46,367 bases of DNA, taken from the NCBI GenBank assembly GCA_015222725.1, contig JADFVW010000396.1:1-46367 (forward strand). The letters are read 5' to 3'. Positions 28,148 through 46,367 of this stretch are shown one piece after another. Both the position numbers and the translations under genes were made by a program. This DNA comes from Pseudomonadota bacterium. GTDB taxonomy: Bacteria; Pseudomonadota; Gammaproteobacteria; Pseudomonadales; Halieaceae. The notes beneath the pieces are model-generated. The model had not been told where the DNA came from and did no database searches. It worked only from the letters and a program-made list of their open reading frames with translations. The stretch's first letter is position 1; each line of letters starts with the position of its first letter.

Positions 28148-30066
28148 TCGTCGCAACAGCCGGTCATGTAGATCACGGCAAGACCTCGCTCATCAAACAG
28201 CTGACCGGTGTGGACACTGACAGGCTGGCTGAGGAAAAGCGCAGGGGGCTGACTATTGATTTGGGTTTTGCCTATCGCCGTATTAATGATGAAGTAACGC
28301 TTGGTTTTATCGATGTGCCCGGGCACAGCCGCTTTATTAATACCATGATAGCGGGTGTAAGCGGCATTGATCTGGGCTTGCTGGTGATTGCCGCCGACGA
28401 TGGACCCATGCCGCAAACCCTGGAACACCTTGAGGTGATGCGCCTGCTGGGGATTTCCGAGTTTGTTCTGGTGGTAAGCAAAATTGACCGTGTGGAAGCT
28501 GGTCGGGTGGAAGAAGTAAGCCGGGCTGTTCGTGCGATGGTGCCTGAGTGTCGACATGCTGTCTTTCCTATTTCCAATAAAAGCGGGCAGGGAGTGGCTG
28601 AATTAAAGGGGTGGCTGGATGAGCGTGCACTGGCATTCAAGGCGAGCAGCGTGGTGGGAAATTTTCGTTTAGCCGTGGATAGGTCATTCTCCCTCAAAGG
28701 TGTGGGGATGGTGGTTACCGGTACGGTGTCGGCGGGCCTTGTCATTCCCGGCGATGAGCTCGAAGTTCTGCCACAGGGCACCAAAGTCCGGGTGCGTTCA
28801 TTGCGGGTACAAAACCATAAGGCTTCGCGGGGGCAGGCGGGTGACCGCTGTGCTCTGAACATAGTGGGGGCGGAGAACGTATCAAGGGGCAGCACACTGG
28901 CGGGTATTGATAGCACGCCCTGTAGCCGACATCTGGATGCCAGGTTTTTCCTGATGCCAGGCGCACCTTTCTCACTTAAGCATTTATCTCCTGTGAAGCT
29001 ATACATTGGTACCCAAAGGTTGGCCTGTAAATTGTATTTTATAGAGGCTGTTGAAGAGGGTCGGCTTGCTCCCGGGGGAAAGGCGCTGGTACAGCTCATT
29101 CTGGATGAGCCAGCGGTCTGTTGTAGCGGTGACAGGTTTATCATAAGAGATGACAGTGAGAGTGTTACCCTGGGCGGGGGGATAATATTGGATCCCTTTG
29201 CGCCAAAAACAGGTAAGTCTCGCCAGCAGCGGCTGAACTACCTGGCGGCCATGGAGCAGCCATCTTTTGAGAAGACACTTGGCTTGTTATTGCAGGCAGG
29301 TTCAGCCCCCCTGAATATTTCACAGCTGCGCAAAGCCTGGAACCTCCGGCAAGAAGAGTGGCAGACCCTGTTTGATAAGGTCTCGGCAGCGCAATTTGAG
29401 GTGGAATCTACACAGTATGCCCTGTCGGAAGAAGATTGGTGCGCCGCAGAGGAAGTGGTGCTGTCTCAGGTTCGTCATTGGCATGAGGAGAATCCGCAGA
29501 AACAGGGTGTCGGCGTATTGGACCTGCAAACTTTGTTTTTGGGTATGAATAGCAGCCCAGGCAGGAAAAATCTATTCAAAGCGGTGATCAGCAAACTGAT
29601 ACGTGGCGGTAGGCTTAGCCTGGTGGGTGGGCTGATAAAAGCTACAAGCTATAAACCGGTTTTGTCTGCATCGGAGAAGGGGCACTGGATAAAAATAAAA
29701 GAGGTGCTGCTTAAGCGAGGTATGTCCATCCCCTCGCTTAGAGAGCTCGCGTTGTCGGCCGGGCTGGAGCTCGAGGAGGCGCGTACGGCCGCCCAGGCTG
29801 CAGCGAGACTAAAGCAATTACACAAACTCAATGATAATCGCTATAGCCTTTCTAAAAATTTATTAGAACATGCAAAGATAATTGTCGAGCTGGGAGAAAG
29901 CCAGGACGGTATTACCGTGATCAGTTATAAAAGTAGAATAGGGTCCGGACGAAAGCTGGCCATAGATATTCTCGAGTACTTTGATGTTTTACGATTTACC
30001 CAGCGCCGTGGTGACAGCCGGGTAGTGATTGATGAAGCCCGGCCCCGGCAGGTATTTGGGAAATAG
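28144..30066 (+). CDS. selB: Selenocysteine-specific translation elongation factor
   Basis: GTPase that binds Sec-tRNA-Sec and the SECIS hairpin to insert selenocysteine at UGA. 640 residues with a TTG start embedded in the selA stop (TTGA overlap), so translation is coupled; the start is fixed by homology, IVATAGHVDHGKTSL being the first residues of SelB and the G1 motif. DVPGHSRF is G3 and SKID is G4. The C-terminal part (about residues 370-640) corresponds to the winged-helix domains that bind SECIS RNA. The next gene begins one nt after its stop. Confidence 0.96.
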   Translation: MIVATAGHVDHGKTSLIKQLTGVDTDRLAEEKRRGLTIDLGFAYRRINDEVTLGFIDVPGHSRFINTMIAGVSGIDLGLLVIAADDGPMPQTLEHLEVMRLLGISEFVLVVSKIDRVEAGRVEEVSRAVRAMVPECRHAVFPISNKSGQGVAELKGWLDERALAFKASSVVGNFRLAVDRSFSLKGVGMVVTGTVSAGLVIPGDELEVLPQGTKVRVRSLRVQNHKASRGQAGDRCALNIVGAENVSRGSTLAGIDSTPCSRHLDARFFLMPGAPFSLKHLSPVKLYIGTQRLACKLYFIEAVEEGRLAPGGKALVQLILDEPAVCCSGDRFIIRDDSESVTLGGGIILDPFAPKTGKSRQQRLNYLAAMEQPSFEKTLGLLLQAGSAPLNISQLRKAWNLRQEEWQTLFDKVSAAQFEVESTQYALSEEDWCAAEEVVLSQVRHWHEENPQKQGVGVLDLQTLFLGMNSSPGRKNLFKAVISKLIRGGRLSLVGGLIKATSYKPVLSASEKGHWIKIKEVLLKRGMSIPSLRELALSAGLELEEARTAAQAAARLKQLHKLNDNRYSLSKNLLEHAKIIVELGESQDGITVISYKSRIGSGRKLAIDILEYFDVLRFTQRRGDSRVVIDEARPRQVFGK

Positions 30067-30067
30067 C

Positions 30068-33000
30068 ATGCTTGATCTGGCAAAGACAGTACTCGCATGT
30101 TTACTGATTTACAGTGCAAGCTTGGCCCATGCTGATGAACAATGGGATAAGCTGAATGAACAAATGATGATGGCATATGAATACGGTGATAGTTCATCTG
30201 CAATTGAAATAGGTAGGCAGTTGTTGGCCTATAGTCGCGAGAACCTGGGTGAAAACCATCCCGACACACTCACCAGCATAAATAGCCTTGCTTACTTATA
30301 TGATGAATATGGTCTCTACGCAGAAGCAGAACCCCTATATCAAGCGGCTCTTACGCAACGACAGCAGGTTCTGGGGAATGACCATCCTGATACGCTTGAT
30401 AGTCTCGGTAATCTTGCATATCTGTATGATAGCCAGGGTAGGTACTATGAGGCCGAACCTTTATATCAGCAATTTTTAGTACAGAGCAAAGAGCTTCTGG
30501 GAGAAGACCATCCTACCACCGTTACCATTCTCGATCGTCTGGCAACCTTGTACTTTCGCCAGGGTCGGTACGAGGATGCGGAGGTCCTGTATCTATCCGT
30601 TCTAGAGCAACGTCAGCGGGTGTTGGACGAGGATGACCCCAACGTACTCTTGAGTCTTAACAATCTGGCAAATTTGTATGATAGCCAGGGTCGCTATAAA
30701 GAAGCTGAACCGTTGTACCAATCTGTGTTGGCAAAAAGTCGGCAGGCCCTGGGAGAGGAGCATCCTTACACGTCGACAACGCTCAATAACCTGGCTGCCT
30801 TGTATGCGCATCAGGGGCGTTACACCGAGGCTGAAGCTCTTTTAGCAAAGACGCTTAAAAAACGAAGGGCAGTTCTTGGCGACAATCACCCCGACACGAT
30901 CTTGAGCATGAATAATTTGGCGACACTATATTTACGTCAGGGGCGTTATGCCGAAGCCGAGCCACTGTATCTCTCTGCATTGGAGCAAGCTCGACAAACT
31001 CTGGGGGGCGAGCATGCAACCACTCTCCTGATAGTTTTCAATACGGCGGACCTGTATAGCAGCCAGGGACGCTATGCGCAGGCCGAGCCCCTGGCGCAGG
31101 AGACTCTTGTTAAGCGGCAGCTGGTTTTGGGGGAAGACCATCCCAGCACGCTGGAAAGTCTTAACAGCCTTGCAATTTTGTATCAAAGCCAGGGTCGTTA
31201 TTCAGAGGCCGAGACCCTGTTTCAAGATGCACTTAGAAAACGGGAAGTCGTTCTGGGTGAGGATCACCCGGATACACTTACAAGCCTAGCCAATCTTGCT
31301 GATCTGTACAAAACCCAGGAGAGATATGAGAAAGCCGAGCCAATGTATCAGTCTGTCGTGCGTAGAGGCAGGCGAGCGCTGGGTGAAAATCACCCTATAA
31401 CATTAGCCAGTCTCTATCATTTGGCAGGCTTGTATGAGCTCCAGAATAATTTCGAGAAAGCTGAGACTTTATATCAGCTGGTTCTTCCCAGAAGCCGGGA
31501 GGTATTCGGCGATAGTCATCCTTATACGTTAGCAACACTCTTTAGTATGGCTATGCTACAGCAGGCCAATGGTAGGTTTTCTACCAGCCTTGGCTATTGG
31601 GCTCAATATTTCGAAGGCAGCAACCAATGGTTGGCCAGTAATATCTGGGGAGCTTCTGAAGATACCCGGAAAATCTATATCGCACGGGAGAAAGTCAGTC
31701 GCGATAATCTGTTTAGTTTAACCGTACGTTTCAATAACCCCGACTCACGGCGCCAGGCACTGGATTTTTCTTTGGCGCGTAAAGGTTTGCTACTGCATGT
31801 TTCCTCCCAGATTACGAATATTGCAAAGGCGTCTTCCGACCCACATGTCTCTGACAGGCTCTCTCAGATTTACGTGAACAAGGGAGCCCTGGCGGCTTTA
31901 TTGACCAAGAGCCCCGATGAAAACAGGCAGCACCGCGTATTTGAGTTGGAGAAAAGAATCGCCAGACTGCAGGCCGAGTTGGGCCAGTCTATTCAAGCGC
32001 TTGGCAAATCACAGGCAGAGGTAAAGTTTGGAGATTTACTGGCTGGCCTGGCTGATGATGAAAGCCTTGTCGATTTTCATGTCTATGAGAATTTGGATCA
32101 GGAGACTGGCGAGGGCAAAACTGACAAGCTATTGGCAATTATCGCCAATAATCAGATCAAGGGTGAAATGCGAGTTATAGACCTGGGGGCAGTAGAGCCC
32201 ATACTCCATCAGATTACCGAATATCGTGAGATGACTCAGCGAGGCACAAACAGCGAATCACTAATACAAGCTTCCCACAAACTGTATCGACAACTTTGGC
32301 AGCCATTAACACCATTCCTGAATAATATTGAGCATGTTTACATATCACCCGATGGTGTCTTGAACTTACTTCCTTTTGCAGTGTTGCGCGATGGGGAAGG
32401 GCGTATGCTTTCACAGGCGTATAAGCTCAGTACTATCGCCAGTCCCAGAGATATAGTCCTGAAACCACCTGGAGGTACGGCTGGTAATCCAACGGTTTTT
32501 TCTGGCCCACTTTATGACAAATCGCAAAAACAACAATATGCAATGGTGGAGAAACAAGATGCAGCTGTAACCTATAGTCGCAGTATGAAAGACTTATACT
32601 TTAGTGCGCTACCCGGTGCATTAGCCGAGGGAGAGACGGTTGTCGAGCTGTTTAAGCAAGAAAAAATGGTGGCTGAACATTACTATCTCGAAAGCGCGAC
32701 AGAAGAACAGCTGAAAAATACTCGCAGTCCGAAGATACTGCATCTCGCTACTCACGGCTTTTTTTTGGCGCCACAGGAAATGCTCGAGAAGCGGGACTCC
32801 CGGGGTGCGAAACTGGTTTCTTCCACAGTGAAAACAAAAGACCCAATGCGTTTAGAGGGTGGCAGTTACTATCAGAACCCTCTGCTCCGATCCGGTATTG
32901 CCCTCGCTAATGCTAACCAGCGAGTGACTTCAACTGCCAAGATTAATGAAAACGATGGCATACTCACGGCATTGGAGGCTATGAGTCTGTATCTGGAAGG

Positions 33001-33316
33001 GACAGATCTGGTGGTTCTCTCTGCATGTGAAACCGGTGTGGGAGAAATTAATGTGGGTGAAGGCGTATATGGATTACAACGCTCATTTTTGGAAGCTGGT
33101 GCCAAAGCAGTGTTGTATACATTATGGCCGGTGAGCGACGAAGGTACTCGTTTCTTTATGGAACGTTTTTATCAAAATTACCTGAATGGCCGTCAGCCCC
33201 AGGCAGCACTACAAATGACTCAAAGAGAGTTTATGGAACACCAGCGCTGGAGCGCACCCTATTACTGGGCGGGGTTCGTTGTCAGTGGTAAAGACTGGTC
33301 AAATGGAGATCGTTAA
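30068..33316 (+). CDS. Exported TPR-CHAT protease-like protein
   Basis: A 1082-residue protein with a Sec signal peptide (LAKTVLACLLIYSASLAHA, cleavage before DEQ). Residues of about 40-510 are eleven kinesin-light-chain/TPR_10-type repeats of 42 residues (consensus LGEDHPDTLxSLNNLAxLY, QGRYxEAEPLY). A linker helical region follows, then a C-terminal CHAT domain (about 720-1080) with catalytic dyad His896 (HLATHGF) and Cys987 (LSACETG), both intact. CHAT is a caspase-clan cysteine protease fold; TPR-CHAT proteins include the Cas7-11-linked craspase and gasdermin-cleaving proteases, but those are cytoplasmic whereas this one is predicted exported. The ATG at 30068 is one nt past the selB stop, preceded by GGGAAAT; a longer frame from 30029 overlaps selB and hides the signal peptide. 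The trypsin-like gene starts 4 nt after its stop. Confidence 0.92.
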   Translation: MLDLAKTVLACLLIYSASLAHADEQWDKLNEQMMMAYEYGDSSSAIEIGRQLLAYSRENLGENHPDTLTSINSLAYLYDEYGLYAEAEPLYQAALTQRQQVLGNDHPDTLDSLGNLAYLYDSQGRYYEAEPLYQQFLVQSKELLGEDHPTTVTILDRLATLYFRQGRYEDAEVLYLSVLEQRQRVLDEDDPNVLLSLNNLANLYDSQGRYKEAEPLYQSVLAKSRQALGEEHPYTSTTLNNLAALYAHQGRYTEAEALLAKTLKKRRAVLGDNHPDTILSMNNLATLYLRQGRYAEAEPLYLSALEQARQTLGGEHATTLLIVFNTADLYSSQGRYAQAEPLAQETLVKRQLVLGEDHPSTLESLNSLAILYQSQGRYSEAETLFQDALRKREVVLGEDHPDTLTSLANLADLYKTQERYEKAEPMYQSVVRRGRRALGENHPITLASLYHLAGLYELQNNFEKAETLYQLVLPRSREVFGDSHPYTLATLFSMAMLQQANGRFSTSLGYWAQYFEGSNQWLASNIWGASEDTRKIYIAREKVSRDNLFSLTVRFNNPDSRRQALDFSLARKGLLLHVSSQITNIAKASSDPHVSDRLSQIYVNKGALAALLTKSPDENRQHRVFELEKRIARLQAELGQSIQALGKSQAEVKFGDLLAGLADDESLVDFHVYENLDQETGEGKTDKLLAIIANNQIKGEMRVIDLGAVEPILHQITEYREMTQRGTNSESLIQASHKLYRQLWQPLTPFLNNIEHVYISPDGVLNLLPFAVLRDGEGRMLSQAYKLSTIASPRDIVLKPPGGTAGNPTVFSGPLYDKSQKQQYAMVEKQDAAVTYSRSMKDLYFSALPGALAEGETVVELFKQEKMVAEHYYLESATEEQLKNTRSPKILHLATHGFFLAPQEMLEKRDSRGAKLVSSTVKTKDPMRLEGGSYYQNPLLRSGIALANANQRVTSTAKINENDGILTALEAMSLYLEGTDLVVLSACETGVGEINVGEGVYGLQRSFLEAGAKAVLYTLWPVSDEGTRFFMERFYQNYLNGRQPQAALQMTQREFMEHQRWSAPYYWAGFVVSGKDWSNGDR
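30251..31600 (+). repeat. Eleven tandem 126-bp TPR-coding units in exact register
   Basis: The His-Pro codons of the repeat (CAT CC-) fall at 30257, 30383, 30509 and so on to 31517, i.e. at exact 126-nt steps with no insertion or deletion across eleven units. The units have diverged in sequence, so this is an old protein-level repeat rather than a fresh DNA duplication. The boundaries given are approximate. Confidence 0.85.
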
Positions 33317-33320
33317 TTGT

Positions 33321-34895
33321 ATGAGAAAATCTTACCTTTTAGCATCAATGGGGCTGGTCTGCTTTTTTATTGTTTCAAGTCATACGCATTCGGAAGTGGC
33401 TGAATCCCTGGCTGTCAGCTATATTCCCCCAATGCGTAATATTGATCCGGAGACCTATGAGGGTGTTGTCCAGCGCTCTGTGTTCGGTGTGGACGACCGT
33501 AAGGATATGCTTTCCAGCGACTACCCATGGTCCACTATAGGCTATCTGTGGTTGGGAAATGGCCACTGCACGGCGACACTGGTGGGGCGCGACCTGGTAC
33601 TGACTAACGCCCACTGTGTGCATGACGAAGATGGCCGCATATTGGCACCGGAAGAAATTACTTTCTATCCCGACCACAGGCAGGAAAGGCCGGGTATCTC
33701 TTCTGGCGCCCGGCAAATTTTTCTCGATAACCTGGGTGCCGCCAGGCAGTTTAGCAATGAACGGGAACAGTACGCCGACTGGGCATTAATTCGCCTGAAT
33801 GTTCCCCTGGGAGACCAGTTTGGCTGGATGTCTGTCGTGGACACCTATGTTGCAGGACAGGTGACTCTGGCTGGTTTCTCAGGTGATTACAATGAGGGTG
33901 AAACAGCGGGCATTCACCAGGGTTGTGCTATTACGGAAATCCATGAAGACGGTATCGTCGTCCACGACTGTGATACCACGGCCGGTTCCAGCGGGTCTGC
34001 TTTATTCCAGGTTCGAGGCGATGATTACCAGATTGTCGCCCTGAATTCCGCGGAGAGCAGCAACCCGATGACGGGAATGCGTTATTCCGGGTCAGTGGAG
34101 TACTCGTCAGACGTGGCATACAACGTTGCAGTAAAAACAGATGGTTTTAGCGACCTGCTTACGCGAATGCGTGTGCAGGGCGCCGGAGGGGACGACGCTT
34201 ATCTTACCGTGTGTAATTATAATGACAATGTAAGCAGTGTTGAGTTGGCAATAGAATATGTGGACCAGGAGTTAGAGCTTTTACAACTTCCTATAGGCCC
34301 TTGGGACTGTGTAGAGCAGCAGGTCAGTGACAGCGGAGACACTGAGGTTCTAGTGCATGACTATTATGCGGATGACAGCTCGCATAATGACGAGTATCTG
34401 TGTGTAACTTCGAAGGGCGAGCTACAGAAAAGTGTATCCGACAGCTGTGCCGCCGATGTCCAGAGACTACCCTTTGCCAGAGTGACAGCTTATTCCCATC
34501 AGGTGAACCTGCACTTCCAGGCTGCGGCCAGCGAGCATGAGGAAGAAAACCCTGTGTCCACGGAGGTTGATTTGTGTAACCAGACAGAGGGGGCTATCGC
34601 GGCGGCCTATGCCTGGATAGTGGAGGACAGCCCTGTCAGCCAGGGCTGGGTTAATCTGGAGATGGGACAGTGCAGTAGCATTAGTCTACCGGACAATTAC
34701 ATGGGTGATTTCGCCGCACATGGTGAGAGTGTGGATGCGTACTATGGTCGAGATGTCGAGCTATGTGTTGACAGTGTGGACAGCTTCGAGCTGGCGGACG
34801 CTGACGAGCTTTGTAGTGGTGAAAATCAGGAGTTTGTAAATTTTTCTATTATGAGAGTTATTCCCGGTCAGAGGGAAGTCTGGAATTTTCGCTAG
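33321..34895 (+). CDS. Exported trypsin-like serine protease with DUF1036-like modules
   Basis: A 524-residue protein with signal peptide (MRKSYLLASMGLVCFFIVSS). The N-terminal roughly 300 residues are a chymotrypsin-fold protease with complete triad: His98 (LTNAHCVHD), Asp153 (YADWALIRL) and Ser224 (TAGSSGSALF). The C-terminal part holds two cysteine-bearing modules (VCNYNDNVSSVELAIEY around 297 and LCNQTEGAIAAAYAW with GWVNLEMGQC around 417-455) that resemble DUF1036. The start at 33321 is chosen for the signal peptide, 4 nt after the CHAT gene. It lies between two caspase-clan genes with 4-nt gaps on each side, so all three are likely one transcript. A role in activating or being activated by its neighbours is inference. 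Confidence 0.88.
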   Translation: MRKSYLLASMGLVCFFIVSSHTHSEVAESLAVSYIPPMRNIDPETYEGVVQRSVFGVDDRKDMLSSDYPWSTIGYLWLGNGHCTATLVGRDLVLTNAHCVHDEDGRILAPEEITFYPDHRQERPGISSGARQIFLDNLGAARQFSNEREQYADWALIRLNVPLGDQFGWMSVVDTYVAGQVTLAGFSGDYNEGETAGIHQGCAITEIHEDGIVVHDCDTTAGSSGSALFQVRGDDYQIVALNSAESSNPMTGMRYSGSVEYSSDVAYNVAVKTDGFSDLLTRMRVQGAGGDDAYLTVCNYNDNVSSVELAIEYVDQELELLQLPIGPWDCVEQQVSDSGDTEVLVHDYYADDSSHNDEYLCVTSKGELQKSVSDSCAADVQRLPFARVTAYSHQVNLHFQAAASEHEEENPVSTEVDLCNQTEGAIAAAYAWIVEDSPVSQGWVNLEMGQCSSISLPDNYMGDFAAHGESVDAYYGRDVELCVDSVDSFELADADELCSGENQEFVNFSIMRVIPGQREVWNFR

Positions 34896-34899
34896 TCTA

Positions 34900-37800
34900 A
34901 TGTTTGCGCGTAGGAAAAACGGGCTCCTTCCTCTGCTGGTTTATCTGGGTTTGAGTGCCCCATGCATAGCCCTGACCATCCCAGAATTCGAATTGCCTGC
35001 GGGAAGCTCTGTCACCATAACGAATGATTATGAGAAGCAGAGGCGGGTTAGGGAAAGTAAAGACAGGCAGCAAACAGGAAGCGAGAGTTCTCTGTGGATA
35101 CGAAATCTGATTCACGTCGATAAGAACAAACGTCTGAGCAAGCACGATGAATGGATACTGTGGGTTCCATTACATAAAACCCGCAGCGATGATAAAGCGT
35201 CCAGTAGTCAGTCCTATGAAACTGCGGTACTGGATGGCATTCAGGTTCGTTATTACTTTGAGGACGAACAGATCGTTCTCGCTTCGGTAAAAGAGGGCGA
35301 GCTGCTGAGTCTCACCGCTGAGCAACGCAGCATGGTCGAATCTATCGCTCGGGGAAACAGCTATTTTGAATCTATAACTATGCTGGCATCGGCATTTGAC
35401 TATACACCCGGGTCTGGGCAAGGGCTGGATGCTGACACAATAAAAAAATACCTGAGTGGCCAGGATAGTGCCACGATAACATTGAATTCTACGAAGCTCA
35501 TGTGGGAGCGCGAGTTGGCGGAGTTTGAAATACGCACGTCCACTAATTCGAACAGAGAGCACTGTACTTACTTTTTTTGGGTATTGGTGGGCTCCGGTCG
35601 ACCTGTTCAGCTAAGCGTGGAATGCAAACTGGAGTTTAAAAAGGATGACGTGAGCTATCACGCATTTACTTATTTGTCCCGGGCCTACAGCTATAGCGAC
35701 TTGTCTGTCAGCACTATTGCACCGGAGCCGCTTCCGGCACTACAGCCCAATGGTGATATTCTGGGTATGGAGTTTTCCGATAAAACAGGACAACTTGCCA
35801 TACTCACCCGGGAAATGGGGTCCGACCAGTCCTGGCTAAGTTTCTGGGATCTGCACCAGCGCAAGGCACTTATTACCATCAGACAGGCCGGTAGCGAACT
35901 CAAAATGACAGATGACCAGAACGGTATCTATGTGTTCGATGAAGAGACGCGAATCATCAACAGCCAAAGATTGGTGGGAAATAGCTACAAACCTTTCGGG
36001 CAAGTTGTAAGCCCGGAATTTGAGTCTGAAAGATCTGTAAAAAGTAGTTCTCTGATTGGTCTGTATCCCATAAGTATTAACCTGGAGAACGAATTTGAGC
36101 TATGGAATCCCGGTTACAACAAAATCAGCTATCGCAAGGCGTTCATGCACTCAGCGCCGGAGCAGATTTCTGCCGCCAGAGACGGTCGCCTTGCGACGAT
36201 TGATTCGTCAGGCAAATTGTATCTACATCATCTGTCCGTTGATGTGTCTGGTTGCAACGCCGACATTGACGCATCATTTTGTGATTATCCAACGGTGGAC
36301 TTTAAAGAATCTAAAGATGAGATAGTCACTATACAAGCTGATTTTCTGCCAGATTCCCCGGATGGAGAGCCAGCAGTCATCTCAGAAATAGAGCTTCATT
36401 CCAGTCGCCCAATTGTCAAATTCTGCACGTCAATACCGGTAGTATGCGGAGTTATAAACTACAGTACCGGCGAGCAATGGTTGACGGGGTCTACCAGTGC
36501 CCTCTTCGCGGGACAGGATAAGATTCTTGTCGATCATGGCGTCTTTCGCCTGGACGATGGGAGTTTTACACGCTTTGGCCAGTTTTCCAGCTATTCAGCG
36601 GGCGCCGCCCTTTCAGAAAATCACCATCTGTTGTTTAACTACCAGCCCAACTACGATGGAAACTACACGGACAAGGAAATCATCGTTCGCAGTAGCGACG
36701 ACGGCTCGATTATCGACCGTATAGTCCGTCAAACATATCCGGTTGTTGATATAGATTCTCCCGATGAAAATACACTGGTGTTTATCACCGGCGATATGGC
36801 GGGGGGGCAGGGCTATCTACTTGATTTGGAGAATCTCGACCTGCAAAAACTGGCGATAGACAGAAGTATCACCGAAGTTGAGTCAAACGGTGAGTTTTTA
36901 TTGTTGGGCTCTAATGATTTTTCGATAGTAGTCCCCGTGTCCCGGCCAACAGATGTTATTCAGCTTGATTTTCCGATCACAGATTTTGTTCTGTTGTCCG
37001 AGTATCTGGTCTATGCGCGCGACCACAGTATTTTCCAGTTGTCGCTGAACGACAAGACCAGCAAAGAGCTTTATACCTTTGACTCACCCGTGCACGAGAT
37101 AGAAGTTTTTGACAGTACGGGTGAACAACTTGTGGCCAGGTTGAACCACGGGGTATTTACACTTCCACACCTGGATAAAACCCTGGAGCTGCCCTATGCC
37201 GGAGGGGCATCGAAAGCCATGGCTTTCGACCCACAATCCAACTCATTTTTTGTTTCTGGTTTGTACGGGTATTCGGCGGTTTTTAATCCTGCCATAGAAG
37301 TCATTCAGAGATTTTCAACACGGGGTGTGCCGACCATGGAAATGTCGCCTCGTTGGGGTGAAACCCGGAGTATGGCCGTGGCGACTAATGGCGAACTGTG
37401 GAGTGCGACGAATGATGGCGGCATAATAATAAGGGACATTGAATCGGGGCTGGTAAAAGAGGAGTATTCCGCCCATAGCGCGAGCATCACAAAAATTCAT
37501 CAGTTAGATAAGAATACCATGGTGACAGCTGCCAGTGATGGCACGCTGAAAATGTGGCGCCTGGATATTCCCGCAGGAAAATATAGAAATTCCGAGCAGG
37601 GGGTTTTGTACGATACATTTATCAGGCGGGACATCGGTAAAAGAAACCCCAAGCTTCTGTCCACAGTCGTCACTGATAAAGAGGGCGACTTTATTATTAG
37701 TTCTCCGGACGGGTATTACTGGTCTACGCCCAGGGCAATTCATCAGGCGAGTTTTCTCAATGGTGATGAGTTGTTTGATTTCTCGCGCTACGACTACTGG

Positions 37801-39027
37801 CTAAATCGACCTGATATTATTCTGGACAGGTTGGGCAAAGGGAGCGACGAGTCGCTTAAATTGTGGCGCAAGATGGTCCAGTTTCGCCAGCGTAGACAAA
37901 CGGGGGTGGCGGAAAGAATGCCTTTTGACCGGACATTTCCGACATTGGTAGTGGGCGGGCCTGACGAAATCTTCATCGATGGCAAACTTGATCTCCACTA
38001 TAATGCTGACCTGCTGCAGGAAAATCGTGGCAGTTTGCATGTAAAAATTAACGAAGTTCCAATTTTTGGTAGTGGCGGGCTGGCAGTTACCGGTGTCCCC
38101 GGTAGGCTGCAGCTTGACCTGGTTCCCGGTATCAACAAGATCAAGCTGCATGTAAAAACCGCAGACGGAATTCAATCTGAAACTCACTTCCTTACCTACA
38201 ATACACCGACATCCAGTGAAAAGCCGGACCTGTATTTACTGACTATTGGGGTGTCCAACTATGCCGATGATAGCCTTGATCTGAACTATGCCAGCAAGGA
38301 CGCACGCGATATACGGGATTTACTCAGTGACAGTGATTACTACAATCGAGTTTATGCAAAAAGTCTATTGGATACCGATGTTACCTCCGAGGCTGTTATA
38401 GAGGCCAGGACGTTTCTGCAGGCTGGCAAACCCACCGATCATGCTATTGTGTTTTTTGCCGGCCATGGCTTTCTCGATGAAGAAAACAACTACTATTTTG
38501 GCACAACCGACATTGACCCGGCTAACCCCGCAGGGAACGGTCTTGCCTATGAAGAGATAAATAATATTCTGGATGGGATTCCCGCACTCAGTAAGCTTCT
38601 GATGCTGGACACTTGTCACTCCGGGGAGGTAACCCGGGCGGCAAAGAATACCAAACTGGCGGCGGGAGTATCGGCAAGGGGAATCAAGCTGAAGAGCAAG
38701 CCACGCAAGGGCGCCGATCTCAGTCTTTCATTCGATATGCTGCAAAAGGCGTTTACAGATTTAAGGGTGTCCACCGGCGCTACCGTAATTAGCGCGGCGG
38801 GGGGGCAGGAATATGCCCTGGAAACCAGTGAAATAAAAAATGGTGTCTTTACTGCCAGTGTCATCAAGGCACTAAGGGGCAGGGCGGCCGACAGCAATAA
38901 TGACGGGCGAGTTTCAACAGCAGAGCTTAGAAAATATACCTATGATGAAGTGTCGCGGCTCACTGGCGGGCAACAAAAACCGACGACCCGCAGCTATAAC
39001 CTGGATTTCGATTTTACGGTTTACTAG
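34900..39027 (+). CDS. Giant exported beta-propeller/caspase-like protein with EF-hand loop
   Basis: 1375 residues starting with a signal peptide (LLPLLVYLGLSAPCIA). Residues of about 270-900 contain WD40-like/quinoprotein-like propeller strands, the clearest being HSASITKIHQLDKNTMVTAA followed by SDGTLKMW. From about 1100 a peptidase C14 caspase-like domain begins (LYLLTIGVSNYADDSLDLNYASKDA) with catalytic His1189 (FFAGHGF) and Cys1239 (LDTCHSGE). After it, residues 1331-1342 (DSNNDGRVSTAE) match a 12-residue EF-hand calcium loop with ligands at 1, 3, 5, 9 and 12. It ends 3 nt from the stop codon of the convergent second caspase gene. The start has no good ribosome-binding site, which suggests coupling to the upstream trypsin-like gene. 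Confidence 0.9.
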   Translation: MFARRKNGLLPLLVYLGLSAPCIALTIPEFELPAGSSVTITNDYEKQRRVRESKDRQQTGSESSLWIRNLIHVDKNKRLSKHDEWILWVPLHKTRSDDKASSSQSYETAVLDGIQVRYYFEDEQIVLASVKEGELLSLTAEQRSMVESIARGNSYFESITMLASAFDYTPGSGQGLDADTIKKYLSGQDSATITLNSTKLMWERELAEFEIRTSTNSNREHCTYFFWVLVGSGRPVQLSVECKLEFKKDDVSYHAFTYLSRAYSYSDLSVSTIAPEPLPALQPNGDILGMEFSDKTGQLAILTREMGSDQSWLSFWDLHQRKALITIRQAGSELKMTDDQNGIYVFDEETRIINSQRLVGNSYKPFGQVVSPEFESERSVKSSSLIGLYPISINLENEFELWNPGYNKISYRKAFMHSAPEQISAARDGRLATIDSSGKLYLHHLSVDVSGCNADIDASFCDYPTVDFKESKDEIVTIQADFLPDSPDGEPAVISEIELHSSRPIVKFCTSIPVVCGVINYSTGEQWLTGSTSALFAGQDKILVDHGVFRLDDGSFTRFGQFSSYSAGAALSENHHLLFNYQPNYDGNYTDKEIIVRSSDDGSIIDRIVRQTYPVVDIDSPDENTLVFITGDMAGGQGYLLDLENLDLQKLAIDRSITEVESNGEFLLLGSNDFSIVVPVSRPTDVIQLDFPITDFVLLSEYLVYARDHSIFQLSLNDKTSKELYTFDSPVHEIEVFDSTGEQLVARLNHGVFTLPHLDKTLELPYAGGASKAMAFDPQSNSFFVSGLYGYSAVFNPAIEVIQRFSTRGVPTMEMSPRWGETRSMAVATNGELWSATNDGGIIIRDIESGLVKEEYSAHSASITKIHQLDKNTMVTAASDGTLKMWRLDIPAGKYRNSEQGVLYDTFIRRDIGKRNPKLLSTVVTDKEGDFIISSPDGYYWSTPRAIHQASFLNGDELFDFSRYDYWLNRPDIILDRLGKGSDESLKLWRKMVQFRQRRQTGVAERMPFDRTFPTLVVGGPDEIFIDGKLDLHYNADLLQENRGSLHVKINEVPIFGSGGLAVTGVPGRLQLDLVPGINKIKLHVKTADGIQSETHFLTYNTPTSSEKPDLYLLTIGVSNYADDSLDLNYASKDARDIRDLLSDSDYYNRVYAKSLLDTDVTSEAVIEARTFLQAGKPTDHAIVFFAGHGFLDEENNYYFGTTDIDPANPAGNGLAYEEINNILDGIPALSKLLMLDTCHSGEVTRAAKNTKLAAGVSARGIKLKSKPRKGADLSLSFDMLQKAFTDLRVSTGATVISAAGGQEYALETSEIKNGVFTASVIKALRGRAADSNNDGRVSTAELRKYTYDEVSRLTGGQQKPTTRSYNLDFDFTVY

Positions 39028-39030
39028 TGT

Positions 39031-41205
39031 CTACCGCCTTACCTCCCAACTGTAAATTTTCATACTTCCCAGATTTGGTTTCGACTTTTTGCGGCCACCG
39101 CGGCTCTGTACTTTAAATTTCTCAGCTGAACCCTCGTTGGAATATAGGGCCGTATCAAGTAACAGTTGCAGTGCGGATGGCTGCTCCTGTTCACGGAAAC
39201 TGAATGCTGAGTTGCTCCCGCCACTGCGAGATCTAACTCCGAGCGGCTCCTGTTCCAGGAAGGAAAAGTCCCTGGAAATGCCGTCGCCCGGCTGGCTCAT
39301 AATGATAAAGTCTTCCAGGCCCTCTGGTTCGGGGTAGAGCTCAAGCACAATAGGCGCGAGCTGGTCGCCGGCCTGAACGCGATTACTGTCTCCTGATTCG
39401 GGCCATATTTGAACAATGCCGTACATGGCGTCCCGGTATAGCAGGCTGACGTCCTGGGGCTTGCGAGAGACATTTTTTATATGCACGGTTACCTCGTCGC
39501 CATCACCAAATACCGGAATTTCTGTGAGCGGATAATCCCTGGTTTCGCCACCTTGCTTTACTGTCAGAGTGACTTGCAGTGGCGAATTGTCGGCTGTGCC
39601 ACTGCTGCCCATATGCGCCTGCATCCTCAGCAGGTTTTCTACTCTTGCGATGCGTGTGAGGGCACTGCCGATACTATCCTCCACTCGCTGTGATGTTGGC
39701 GGTGTGGGCACCGTGAGCAGTCTTTGTGGCGATCTCTCGATATCACAGCGCTGTCTCCCTGTTGTCGTAAGATCCTGGTATTCGCAAGGCAGGCTTTGGT
39801 CGGGGGAGAGAAACCAGAGAGCGCCCTCAAATAGGCTCACACGTAAATCGGCTATCTCGCCTTCCTTCCATGCAACCAGCATGGGATTGCTATCTATGGC
39901 ACTCTCAATGGCTGACTTCAGACCCCGTAACTCAGTAGGTTTTAGCCCCCGACTTGGCAGGGCCGCCACGGACAGAGTGAAATCCAGGGCCGGCTCTTTT
40001 AGCAGGGTGTAGACTTTCTTTGGAAGTTTGGTCGCTTCGGTATCTATAAGAGTGGCACTGCTGGAGAGAGCTTCTGCTGAAGCTACAACTGCCTGTCCCA
40101 GATAGTCGTCCTCTTGAGCGACCGGGCGAGCGTAGAGATTAATGCGGGCCCCTGGACTGAAATTTTGCAGGCGTCCCGCACTGACTTCTATGGTGCTGCT
40201 CTTGTGTGCTGTAGTAGCGGGCCAAATATCTGTATTTTCTGAGCCTTCATTAAACACGGCCGCATTGAGGTTTGAGCCGCCACTGATCATGGGTTGGCTG
40301 CCTCGCCAGGGCATGGTGCGGTACTGCTCGAGAATCTGCTGACCCAACTGCTCATAGCTGATGCTGCGGTAACGCGATAATACATTCATCATATTGTAGG
40401 TGAAAACACCGTGGACACTGCGATGCTCTCCCTTGCGGGGCAGACTCATCTCCGGCGTGGTCTGGTTGGACTGGGCGGCTGAAAAGGCGATCAGGTAGCC
40501 TCGCTTGGCGGTGGTATTGTCACCGTTATCGGTGATAAAACTCTGTGTCTCATCCGCGGGGAGAGCGCTCTTCCCCCTGCTCTTTATGCTACTGGACTCG
40601 GGTATGCCCAGTGTTCCGGGAGCCAGCTGTCTGTACCTGACCTCTCCAAAACCACCCCCACGCGTCATGGTGCCGGAATGACAGCTATCGAAAACCATCC
40701 ACACGTCTGCTCCCCGGTCGCGAATTCGGTCCAGGTATGCTCCCATTTCGTTGTCGGTGATGGCGTTGACCACTGAGCCTATATGGCTGTCCCATTTTGC
40801 CGCGTCGGCAGGCAGAAATATCTCATCCAGGCCGTCTGTCTCGGAAGTGTCATCTGGCTGTGCAGGCTGCCGCGAACCGTGCCCGGCAAAATGCAGAAAG
40901 ACGAAATCGCCTGGCTGGCTGGTACTGGCCAACTTTTCCAGCTCCGACAGAATGTTTTTTCGCAGGGGCTTACCCTGTGCTTCCGGGCGCTCACTTAGCT
41001 CAACCATGTGCGTACTGTCGAAGCCGCGCTGGGCCAGTACTGCGCTCACCAGGGCGGCATCGTTGGCCGGGCCAACCAGGTTGGCATTCTTGAGAGCTGG
41101 ATAATCTGTAACGCCCACAATAAGCGCGTGCTTTTCTGCATATGCCGTTGTGCTGTAAAAGGCGATGAAGACCAAAGTAGTAAAAATGCGAGGTAGGGTG
41201 CCCAT
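39031..41205 (-). CDS. Exported caspase-like (C14) protein with DUF4384-like C-terminus
   Basis: 724 residues with signal peptide (PRIFTTLVFIAFYSTTAYA, cleavage before EKH). The caspase domain spans about residues 24-330: KHALIVGVTDYPAL start, His109 (HFAGHGSRQ) and Cys175 (VFDSCHSGTM), so the dyad is intact. A region around 560-640 (GDEVTVHIKNVSRKPQDVSLLY, GIVQIWPESGDSNRV) resembles DUF4384, often found after bacterial metacaspase-like domains. Transcribed toward the propeller-caspase gene and divergently from the ACP-hydrolase gene, so it has its own promoter in 41206-41300. Substrates unknown; by analogy with metacaspases and orthocaspases, cleavage after Arg/Lys is possible. Confidence 0.92.
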   Translation of the reverse strand: MGTLPRIFTTLVFIAFYSTTAYAEKHALIVGVTDYPALKNANLVGPANDAALVSAVLAQRGFDSTHMVELSERPEAQGKPLRKNILSELEKLASTSQPGDFVFLHFAGHGSRQPAQPDDTSETDGLDEIFLPADAAKWDSHIGSVVNAITDNEMGAYLDRIRDRGADVWMVFDSCHSGTMTRGGGFGEVRYRQLAPGTLGIPESSSIKSRGKSALPADETQSFITDNGDNTTAKRGYLIAFSAAQSNQTTPEMSLPRKGEHRSVHGVFTYNMMNVLSRYRSISYEQLGQQILEQYRTMPWRGSQPMISGGSNLNAAVFNEGSENTDIWPATTAHKSSTIEVSAGRLQNFSPGARINLYARPVAQEDDYLGQAVVASAEALSSSATLIDTEATKLPKKVYTLLKEPALDFTLSVAALPSRGLKPTELRGLKSAIESAIDSNPMLVAWKEGEIADLRVSLFEGALWFLSPDQSLPCEYQDLTTTGRQRCDIERSPQRLLTVPTPPTSQRVEDSIGSALTRIARVENLLRMQAHMGSSGTADNSPLQVTLTVKQGGETRDYPLTEIPVFGDGDEVTVHIKNVSRKPQDVSLLYRDAMYGIVQIWPESGDSNRVQAGDQLAPIVLELYPEPEGLEDFIIMSQPGDGISRDFSFLEQEPLGVRSRSGGSNSAFSFREQEQPSALQLLLDTALYSNEGSAEKFKVQSRGGRKKSKPNLGSMKIYSWEVRR

Positions 41206-41305: not shown

Positions 41306-41333
41306 TTGTCATAAATGTTGTGGAAGATATACT
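41306..41333 (+). promoter_or_regulatory. Sigma70-type promoter for the ACP-hydrolase gene
   Basis: TTGTCA (41306-41311) and TATACT (41328-41333) are separated by 16 nt, each one mismatch from consensus. The predicted transcript would start near 41340, 26 nt before the ATG at 41366, with GGAG in between. Position and quality are good, but this is consensus matching only. Confidence 0.55.
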
Positions 41334-41365
41334 ATCAATTGAACAATAGTGCTGGAGAAATAGAA

Positions 41366-42757
41366 ATGGGTCGCCGGAAAGCATCATATTTGTTAATTGC
41401 CGCATTGTGGGCTGTGTCGCAGATGTCCCTTGCGGACATATCTAAAGTGGATAGAAACCATAGGCAGGCCTGCGACATCATGGACGAATCAATTCTTGAG
41501 GTGGTGATCGACATAGCCAGTCAGCGCCTCGGCGTGCCATCGGGCCAGATAAATGTGATGGATGAATTTGCAGGATTGGGTGCGGACTCGATGACTATCT
41601 ACGAGATTAATGCCGCCGCTGCAGATCGATACAAGGTGCAGGATATCATCGCGGAGTTTTCAAACGAATCGGTGTGTCAGCTGGCGCTACAAGTGGAGGA
41701 GGCGGTAACGATACTTGTGCAGATGCGTGGCCGTGGTGGCCCGGGCTCGGTCGAGGAAGAAGTCATCGAGCAAACGGTCTATTACGCCACCAATCGACAG
41801 TATGATTCTACGGTGAAAGACCTGTCGCAAAGATACTTAGGCGAGCGCAGTATCGACAAGTCCCTGGATTATGGTATTGCGGTTGTCACCATTCCGGCCA
41901 GCCATAAGTCGGGCATGTTGGAGGGACCTTTTCTGGGCCTGAAAATGCTGGAAGACCCGCAGAGCCATATTATTTTGAGCAGCCTGGAAGAGCTGGGGGA
42001 GAAACACTTTTTCGAGGCTATCGGAAATACCCTGGCGCAGAGTGCCGGAGGTGACTGGGATGGGCATGCGATAATTTTTATACATGGGTTTAACGTGCCA
42101 TTCACGGAGGCGGTGATCCGCACCGCACAGATTGCCTATGACATTGAGTTCACCGGCGCCCCCATGCTCTTTTCCTGGCCTTCGGATGGCAGTCTGCTGG
42201 GCTACACCTCAGACAGGGAAGATGCCACCTGGAGTGTGGCTTATCTTCGCGAGCTTCTCGATAAAACCGTGACAAAACTTGCCGGCAAAAAAATACATAT
42301 TATTGCCCACAGCATGGGTAATCAGGTGCTGATCGGGGCATTGCAACAGATGATGCTCGCAGACAACAGTCGCAGCCAGGTGTTTGAGTCGATTACCCTG
42401 GCGGCCCCGGATTTTGATGCGGAATTATTTGTAGACCAGATTGCGCCCCTGGTGCGGGACCTGACGTCTCACTGGACCATATATACTTCGGACAACGATA
42501 TGGCTCTCAGTATTTCTCTGGAAGTGAATAGCAACCGACGCCTGGGCCAGCCCGTAACACCTATTGCGGAGTACGATGTAATCGATGCCACGGGAATAGA
42601 AGTATCACCATGGAGCGTTCCCGAAAATCATTCGTATTATGCTACCAAGCAACAAGTCATCGATGATATTCAGCAGGCCATTTCCGGGGTCAGTGCCAGG
42701 GACAGGGGTTTGAGTCAGAAGCGAAAGGGCGGTATTGTTTACTACTCGTTGGAGTAA
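41366..42757 (+). CDS. Exported acyl-carrier-like/DUF900 alpha-beta hydrolase fusion
   Basis: 463 residues from the ATG at 41366 (GGAG upstream), opening with a signal peptide (ASYLLIAALWAVSQMSLA). Residues of about 37-112 resemble an acyl carrier protein: helix ILEVVIDIASQRLGV, then GLGADSMTIYEINAAA, where Ser75 sits at the phosphopantetheine attachment position of the usual G-x-DS motif. Residues of about 135-440 form an alpha/beta hydrolase of the DUF900 kind: IIFIHGFNVPF (oxyanion region), LFSWPSDG, and nucleophile elbow IIAHSMGNQ with Ser316. An ACP domain in an exported protein is odd, since holo-ACP synthase is cytoplasmic. The tRNA-Sec gene starts 3 nt after the stop. Frames upstream of 41366 lack a ribosome-binding site and would bury the signal. 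Confidence 0.85.
   Translation: MGRRKASYLLIAALWAVSQMSLADISKVDRNHRQACDIMDESILEVVIDIASQRLGVPSGQINVMDEFAGLGADSMTIYEINAAAADRYKVQDIIAEFSNESVCQLALQVEEAVTILVQMRGRGGPGSVEEEVIEQTVYYATNRQYDSTVKDLSQRYLGERSIDKSLDYGIAVVTIPASHKSGMLEGPFLGLKMLEDPQSHIILSSLEELGEKHFFEAIGNTLAQSAGGDWDGHAIIFIHGFNVPFTEAVIRTAQIAYDIEFTGAPMLFSWPSDGSLLGYTSDREDATWSVAYLRELLDKTVTKLAGKKIHIIAHSMGNQVLIGALQQMMLADNSRSQVFESITLAAPDFDAELFVDQIAPLVRDLTSHWTIYTSDNDMALSISLEVNSNRRLGQPVTPIAEYDVIDATGIEVSPWSVPENHSYYATKQQVIDDIQQAISGVSARDRGLSQKRKGGIVYYSLE
42710..42738 (+). promoter_or_regulatory. Possible selC promoter inside the hydrolase gene end
   Basis: TTGAGT (42710-42715) and TATTGT (42733-42738) are 17 nt apart, placing a start near 42745, about 16 nt before the tRNA. 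This would let selC be transcribed independently of the hydrolase gene. Consensus matching only. Confidence 0.35.
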
Positions 42758-45723: not shown

Positions 45724-46367
45724 CTAGCGCGCCACAAAGAAAAAGTCGCCCACCTCATCGCCTGCACGCTTAATGGCCTTGAACTCGGGTGCCACGGCGG
45801 TTTGTTCCTCGCCCAGTTGGTCGAGTATGGCGAGAAATAGCGCAGGGGCCGTTAGCACTCTGTCATTCTTTTCCAGTACTTCTATAAACGCTGTGGCGAA
45901 TATCGATGTGCTGTGGCCCCCATCGTCGGCCATTGGATGGTCTCGGCCCGAAGTCAGCAGCAAACGCGATTTGTTGGGCATGCGCAGCGAGATATAGGCC
46001 TCGCTCTGTAGGCTGGCCCGGCTGCTGGCCAGTAAAAATGCGGGGTTGTTTGCTAGCAGGCCGGCAAACGAAGAGTCTGCGATAACGATAATGCGCTTTG
46101 CTTTAATTCGGGCCAGGTGGCCACTTATTTGCTCGGTGGGAACCCAATAGGTGTCATTGGGAGGCGGTTCTGCGTTTACGGGCAGCCAATAGCCGGTTTC
46201 ATAATTACCGGTTTTACGGCGGTTACCGTGCCCGGAATAGTAAATCAGTAAATTGTCCTCGGCGGAGAGTGTTTCATTGAGCTTGTTCAGAGCTTTTAGC
46301 ACCGAGGCATCGTCGCCATTGGTTAAAACCTGAACCTTGTAGCCGTAGTTTTTGGTTAGCAAGCTAC
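45724..46367 (-). CDS. Caspase-fold protein with Ser at catalytic Cys position (cut by right edge)
   Basis: The C-terminal roughly 214 residues of a peptidase C14-like protein; the frame is open to the right edge, and the first in-window start-like codon (TTG) is probably internal. LLIYYSGHGNRRKTG keeps the catalytic His. The second site reads IIVIADSSFAGLL where active relatives have D-x-C-x-S-G: the Cys is Ser (codon at 46069-46071) and the following Ser is Ala. It may be an inactive pseudo-caspase or a serine-using variant. FATAFIEVLEKNDRV and the C-terminal EVGDFFFVAR are typical of the fold's end. The N-terminal architecture, including any signal or partner domain, lies outside the window. 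Confidence 0.85.
   Translation of the reverse strand, partial: SLLTKNYGYKVQVLTNGDDASVLKALNKLNETLSAEDNLLIYYSGHGNRRKTGNYETGYWLPVNAEPPPNDTYWVPTEQISGHLARIKAKRIIVIADSSFAGLLANNPAFLLASSRASLQSEAYISLRMPNKSRLLLTSGRDHPMADDGGHSTSIFATAFIEVLEKNDRVLTAPALFLAILDQLGEEQTAVAPEFKAIKRAGDEVGDFFFVAR

Follow-up and report, generated by a model that had tools for sequence, protein, structure and literature searches.

Bacterial caspases are mostly treated as cytoplasmic proteases of cell death and defence. In a 46,367-nt stretch of DNA from a Pseudomonadota bacterium of the family Halieaceae, which comprises one entire contig (JADFVW010000396.1 of assembly GCA_015222725.1; hereafter the window), a gene for a trypsin-like serine protease is set between two genes of the caspase clan, and the question raised by this locus is whether the serine protease exchanges cleavage with these neighbours and, if so, in which direction. 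An earlier note on this DNA had considered serine-protease activation of the cysteine proteases, or the reverse, to be a plausible zymogen logic. Our reading, held tentatively and at slightly less than an even chance, is that a zymogen S1B protease may have been recruited into an exported caspase module, in which the caspase and CHAT enzymes would act on the S1 protease in a cascade.

The gene runs from an ATG at 33321 to the end of its stop codon at 34895 on the forward strand and encodes a protein of 524 aa which, by ORF, Pfam and PDB alignment, is a probably exported serine protease of the S1B (V8-like) type that carries two DUF1036-like modules in tandem. The CHAT ORF upstream ends at 33316 and the caspase ORF downstream starts at 34900, which leaves the 4-nt gap on either side that the earlier note had described, and the Pfam matches of these neighbours (CHAT and Peptidase_C14, respectively) bear out its placement of a trypsin-like protease between two caspase-clan genes. 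Above the Pfam cut-offs, the protein matches Trypsin_2 (4.3e-11), Trypsin (1.3e-6) and DUF1036 (2.3e-9, residues 415-509). The triad, also claimed as complete in that note, is indeed intact: by motif and by alignment to the best PDB match (1p3c, E 2.1e-12), H98 (TNAHC from residue 95; 33612..33614, +), D153 (ADWAL from 152; 33777..33779, +) and S224 (GSSGSA from 222; 33990..33992, +) sit in the expected S1B context. Residues 1-24 (33321..33392, +) form a probable signal peptide by hydropathy heuristic only. Residue 55 aligns with residue 3 of 1p3c, so that S53 corresponds to residue 1 of 1p3c_A and is preceded by R52, and the extrapolated alignment thus predicts a propeptide boundary at R52/S53 (33474..33479, +). 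The protein therefore resembles V8-like S1B proteases such as 1p3c, which we take to be the glutamyl endopeptidase of Bacillus intermedius, in its protease domain, triad and mature start, but differs from them in its tandem DUF1036 tail, its caspase neighbours and an Asn, seen in this alignment and in that of the S1B tree, at the column of a 1p3c His that is presumably the His of the Glu-binding pocket. This Asn makes Glu specificity unlikely, and the protein is classed here as S1B-like by sequence match and triad, without assignment to the glutamyl endopeptidases. An AlphaFold2 model of the protein alone (pLDDT 35) was left out of the evidence.

The eight cysteines of the tail fall into two quartets, at residues 298, 330, 361 and 376 (spacing 32/31/15) of module 1 (residues ~290-405; 34188..34535, +) and at residues 419, 451, 482 and 498 (spacing 32/31/16) of module 2 (residues 415-509; 34563..34847, +). 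While module 2 matches DUF1036 (PF06282) with 38.3 bits against a cut-off of 23, module 1 has no Pfam match; a four-sequence DUF1036 profile, which took in module 2 itself, found module 1 with an E value of 0.011, compared to 0.098 for the best of 500 shuffles. The plural "DUF1036-like modules" of the earlier note is thus justified, if less firmly for module 1. Its suggestion that the cysteine-rich tail may bind a partner fared worse, as DUF1036 is absent from the linked S1 proteins that were scanned with Pfam (the V8-like protein of L108, L128, the first of L131, L186 and two of L188). DUF1036 was also dismissed as a marker of the system: only 4 of the 274 class genomes carry it, one of them the window genome, and in stretches of ~3.3 kb round it in the three remaining genomes (L005, L006, L007/L009) neither CHAT nor a caspase nor a hydrolase was matched.

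The gene upstream (30068..33316, +) encodes a TPR-CHAT protein with a probable signal peptide (Pfam CHAT 9.3e-75; TPR), in which His (ATHG) and Cys (SACE) motifs were seen by eye. Downstream lies a probably exported WD40-like caspase (34900..39027, +) with a C-terminal C14 domain (Peptidase_C14 5.2e-15; H1189, C1239) and weak WD40/beta-propeller matches below the Pfam cut-offs, then a second probably exported C14 caspase, CASP2 (39031..41205, -; Pfam Peptidase_C14, DGLDE and DSCHSG motifs), and a DUF900 alpha/beta hydrolase with an N-terminal ACP-like domain (41315..42757, +; Pfam). CASP2 has both features by which we defined its family, namely a C14 domain with a His-Cys dyad and a conserved C-terminal half; this family spans two classes, with three relatives 32-36% identical to the window CASP2. 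At the N-terminus of all five proteins, charged residues are accompanied by a hydrophobic stretch and cleavage motifs of small residues, as judged by a heuristic rather than a signal-peptide predictor and, for the DUF900 hydrolase, only when read from an internal Met (residue 18); all five are probably exported. In the hydrolase (41315-42757, +), the ACP-like PP-binding domain (E 2.7e-4, GADSM motif) lies ahead of DUF900 and behind the signal-peptide-like start, and an acyl-carrier domain outside the cytoplasm would be odd; two Sulfitobacter DUF900 relatives have no PP-binding match by Pfam. At the edges of the cluster, a SelB-like gene (by eye) ends 1 nt before the CHAT start (30066-30068), so that the cluster starts directly after a selenocysteine gene, and another caspase-domain gene (45724-46365, -) is truncated by the contig end.

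The S1 protein is present as a single copy in its genome (an assembly that is 83% complete, in 425 contigs), and no relative over its full length turned up in any of the samples. The two same-genus genomes and the 389 other genomes of the order sample (1e-10) were all without a match; partial matches, over ~90 residues of the protease domain, were found in 3 of 57 other relatives, and 21 of 298 other genomes of the phylum matched (1e-8), among the matches listed always within the protease domain. Same-family matches (L002-L004) as well as plasmid and phage matches were rejected as full relatives for covering the protease domain only, and pattern-based searches for related loci, one of them with weak N-terminal patterns, returned nothing.

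The S1 search did lead to two genomes (G833 and G972) of g454, a genus of the same phylum and another class and probably Mesorhizobium-like, in which V8-like and trypsin genes adjoin a CASP2 homologue. With G833 itself counted, 38 of 141 relatives of this genome carry CASP2 (E 1e-30), 33 of the 38 belonging to g454, and the 33 of 80 g454 genomes with a V8-like S1 (E 1e-20) are the identical 33; as this correlation reflects one island in one genus, the 33 genomes were not counted as independent cases. Among 28 fetched g454 loci (L113-L127, L133-L145), the V8-like gene lies within the stretch in 27 and on another contig in the 28th, and a trypsin is present in 19, the other nine stretches either breaking off at the V8-like gene or shortly beyond it, or beginning inside the cluster. 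Four of the 28 (L126, L139, L140 and L145) keep both S1 genes and CASP2, with WD40-caspase, MORN and CapA-like genes not found and WD40-caspase-like remnants (42-62 bits) in three. In an S1B tree with 33 rows, the window and g454 do not group together. Its starred branches require the caspase label to change at least twice, which may reflect two gains or one gain plus one loss, and the window branch is long. A single origin of the S1B-caspase association is not favoured by this tree, and the window V8-like protease was apparently recruited separately.

S1 genes also stand beside the same caspase family in further lineages, as the earlier note's expectation of co-occurrence across genomes had it. 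In G1103, one strand carries a TPR protein that is caspase-like by profile (34 bits), together with CASP2, a TPR-CHAT protein and three trypsins in a row; in G1105, a trypsin, CASP2 and CHAT share a strand. A Pseudosulfitobacter plasmid cluster contains CASP2, an HtrA-like trypsin_2-PDZ gene, two-component genes, a patatin, a caspase, a trypsin located 5 nt downstream of the caspase, and CHAT. On a plasmid of Rhizobium sp. 007, CASP2 and a trypsin are ~2.1 kb apart, and the trypsin of R. gallicum appears broken in its record. The spacing between C168 and C182 is 49 residues in the linked trypsins of g454, G1105, G1103 (two of three; the third, without the scanned motif, is absent from this count) and Pseudosulfitobacter, compared to 15 in L064, 19 in the Rhizobium fusion described below and 38 in Rhizobium sp. 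007. These trypsins with a large 170-loop insertion (L108 7391-8779, L128 8822-9922, L131 15047-18639, L188 13531-14802) all come from loci fetched for caspase, CHAT or S1. In L064 (5475-13722), two-partner-secretion-like genes (by eye) flank a CHAT gene, and a trypsin that looks secreted is encoded near it; this locus was dismissed as a parallel, its trypsin being of ordinary spacing and of another type, and its arrangement being different.

In a row of genes on an R. leguminosarum plasmid, a DUF4384-OmpA gene and a caspase gene (His and Cys motifs present) precede the gene for a trypsin-caspase-DUF4384 fusion, which overlaps the caspase gene by 4 nt and is followed by serpin and kinase genes. 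The serpin (L186 10627-11808; Pfam 1.6e-53), right after the fusion, has the loop TEAAASTAVITERSIDP with an Arg near the expected P1, and we take this loop to resemble that of an inhibitor with Arg at P1. The fusion was matched over at least 80% of its length in 88 of 89 plasmid records (Rhizobium 88, Neorhizobium 1). Its caspase part reads SGQG, with Gln in place of His, and is thus probably not a protease; this corresponds to the QC pseudo-orthocaspases with N-terminal trypsin and C-terminal DUF4384, for which the fusion was published in 2019 (PMC6426788).

Counted by lineage, a trypsin-type S1 is present in 4 of 14 caspase-found loci and in 0 of 40 control stretches (Fisher p 0.003), with the reservation that the grouping into lineages was drawn up after the loci had been seen; among the non-g454 genomes fetched from the CASP2 search of G833 relatives, two of four carry one (p 0.006). 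The 14 lineages were G550 (L022), G636 (L035, a weak member), G1105, G1103, G1094, G1081, a second G1048 copy (L132), Rhizobium sp. 007 and R. gallicum (L187, L190) as one, Aquibium, Azospirillum, Mesorhizobium AR07, Pseudosulfitobacter (46 records as one, one opened), two Sulfitobacter as one, and Sinorhizobium (represented by one of its two records). Left out, as the starting point or because they were found through S1, were the window, g454 and R. leguminosarum, as were L029 of G489 (a 5.8-kb contig), G1084 and weaker caspase matches such as L025, L030, L033 and L038. The controls amount to 783 kb from four genomes (18 stretches from G1105, 18 from G1022, two each from G1103 and G1094), in which the two S1 profiles match nothing; in 59 same-class caspase/CHAT stretches (19 + 40; 863 kb), some of which are also among the 14 lineages, these profiles found one trypsin, that of L064. 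Because the trypsin profile was built largely on linked trypsins (five of six sequences came from the CASP2-linked loci L108, L128 and L131), the scan was repeated with a profile-free motif, with unlinked queries (the L064 trypsin and the L088 V8-like protein) and with an HtrA-like query, which again gave 0 of 40 controls and 1 of 59 same-class stretches. Some CASP2 and caspase queries derived in full or in part from a locus with linked S1; the window CASP2 as query recovers largely the same plasmids as a caspase query from an S1-linked locus.

A trypsin- or V8-type S1 is absent from 10 of the 14 CASP2 lineages, and S1 is thus a recurrent accessory rather than a core component. By profiles and motif scan, no S1 was found at the CASP2 loci of Azospirillum, Aquibium, Mesorhizobium AR07, Sinorhizobium and Sulfitobacter; none was found at that of G1081, and G1094 has an HtrA-like match only. 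The proposed link between serine and cysteine proteases is supported in part, through the repeated co-occurrence of S1 proteases with exported-looking caspases and CHAT proteins, at times within one gene row or one polypeptide, with cleavage between them as a prediction and S1 as an optional member. With the window genome counted, Peptidase_C14 occurs in 56 and CHAT in 40 of the 274 genomes of the class sample. In the same-class genome G550 (L022), a WD40-like caspase 49% identical to that of the window is accompanied by a convergent CASP2 and a DUF900 hydrolase, and S1 and CHAT were unmatched within the fetched 19 kb; in L028, the end of a CHAT gene is directly followed by a caspase of the window's type, with no intervening gene. 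Two Sulfitobacter plasmids carry CHAT, a caspase and a DUF900 hydrolase together with a WD40-type protein (in L194, with Pfam WD40 and no caspase domain) or a second caspase protein, and no S1 by profiles or motif scan. The CHAT, caspase, WD40-like and DUF900 set without detected S1, found on these two plasmids and in part in G550, indicates that the caspase/CHAT/DUF900 set is self-standing. ECF-sigma-like genes (by eye) lie beside exported-looking caspases in L022 (5038-7626, a region that also encodes a CHASE2 protein), L029 (3709-4263) and L035 (7776-8396), which suggests envelope signalling.

With regard to mechanism, the 4-nt spacing on both sides and the signal-peptide-like N-termini of all five proteins lead us to propose that the product of the window gene is an extracytoplasmic S1B protease, synthesised as a zymogen and recruited to a module of TPR-CHAT protein, WD40-like caspase, CASP2 and DUF900 hydrolase that would all be exported. 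An envelope signal would switch on the caspase and CHAT enzymes, which would cut after Arg/Lys, process themselves and cleave the S1 proprotein after R52; the active serine protease might then amplify the response, with the DUF900 hydrolase as a further effector. The DGLDE-type motif of metacaspases, seen also in CASP2, forms an acidic pocket for Arg/Lys. Orthocaspases are described as cleaving after positively charged residues (PMC6426788). Where the site is covered, Arg, or once Lys, is found at the predicted mature start of the caspase-linked S1 proteins; Arg is also there in the S1B protein of L086, near which no caspase was found, and in that of L084, and is ordinary at the mature start of S1A zymogens. 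The activation-site Arg therefore permits the caspase-to-S1 order, and goes no further.

Activation of the S1 zymogen by an Arg-specific caspase is nevertheless favoured over the reverse order, in which S1 would act upstream to cleave or release the caspase and CHAT proteins and to which we assign a small chance. The Arg/Lys-rich linkers that the earlier note had wanted searched for in the neighbours do exist: the p20/p10 linker of the WD40-like caspase (GVxARGIK...RK) speaks for the reverse order, as does the Asp at the 189-equivalent position of the g454, first G1103 and Rhizobium trypsins, which predicts Arg/Lys specificity for them. However, this linker is conserved in G550 and similar in L027, stretches of 19 kb and 8 kb (the latter a contig) in which S1 was undetected, so that self-processing fits at least equally well; in the trypsins of G1105 and Pseudosulfitobacter and the third of G1103, the 189-equivalent position is occupied by Gly or Ser, and the Asn of the window protein at the position of the B. 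intermedius endopeptidase His makes its specificity unpredictable from that enzyme. The S1 protein could also be a bystander, that is, a secreted housekeeping or nutritional protease that shares an operon and exchanges no cleavage with its neighbours. This is unlikely, though it deserves to be taken seriously, as the window protein has no full-length relative in the samples searched, V8-like matches at the phylum level are not rare (the 21 of 298 genomes), six of the eight regions fetched round them show no caspase or CHAT match, and most CASP2 lineages lack S1; on the other hand, the 4-nt spacing on two sides, the recurrence of S1 genes next to CASP2 in several families (compared to 0 of 40 control stretches) and the caspase-trypsin adjacency, fusion and serpin of Rhizobium speak against a bystander.

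That the cluster is a cytoplasmic system of anti-phage conflict, akin to EACC/NucA-trypsin or gasdermin systems and with trypsin and caspase as alternative effectors, is improbable. Combinations of trypsin, caspase and CHAT are described for conflict and gasdermin systems (PMC8195603, PMC9612521, PMC10907252), and several features are shared: EACC1, EACC2 and NucA-trypsin systems combine caspase and trypsin domains, and EACC2 has TPR proteins and ECF sigma genes nearby, as presented in PMC8195603; bacterial gasdermin loci, as presented in PMC9612521, include caspase-like (also CHAT) and trypsin genes, and a phospholipase in some. These EACC and NucA-trypsin systems are, however, organised round adaptor or constant domains, in many cases with NTPases, whereas the five window products look exported by the heuristic and, when scanned with Pfam, match neither an NTPase nor a gasdermin, although small adaptor domains may lie outside Pfam. 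The EACC1-associated caspase model (NF047832, cut-off 140 bits) gives 88.9 bits for the WD40-like caspase and 30.2 bits for CASP2, and PADLOC offers no convincing match beyond generic caspase and TPR models, the best for the window S1 being LmuA (E 0.0018). Csx29, as described in PMC10028731, shares the TPR-CHAT architecture but is CRISPR-linked, while the window TPR-CHAT protein has a signal-peptide-like start and no CRISPR protein is among the five scanned. Also close to the exported caspase module proposed here is the Rhizobiales trypsin-QC pseudo-orthocaspase-DUF4384 protein (PMC6426788), in which a trypsin is physically joined to a caspase fold; that fusion is a single polypeptide with an S1A protease and an inactive-looking caspase, whereas the window has an S1B protease, separate genes and intact caspase motifs, and the passages of that paper on the fusion do not mention serpin, CHAT or DUF900 neighbours. 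Trypsin, CHAT and serpin go unmentioned in the main text of a caspase survey (PMC3501461), as do caspase and serpin in that of a serine-protease survey (PMC2605481). Within the open-access literature, to which the search was confined (subscription papers and preprints being outside its scope), no description of exported S1/CASP2/CHAT/DUF900 clusters was found.

More broadly, these loci might belong to a Gram-negative extracytoplasmic zymogen cascade that pairs the caspase clan with secreted S1 proteases and lipase-like effectors (DUF900, patatin), with a serpin as brake in Rhizobium and the window as a V8-like version; by analogy, its logic would be like that of clotting or insect Toll cascades. 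This wider proposal is doubtful, and we would expect it to fail more readily than to hold. Predicted activation site, candidate activators and candidate inhibitor are encoded side by side, some of them in ordinary rhizobia, which makes it directly testable. If true, a set of exported caspase, zymogen S1 protease and lipase-like protein, in some cases with a serpin, would represent a different use of the caspase family.
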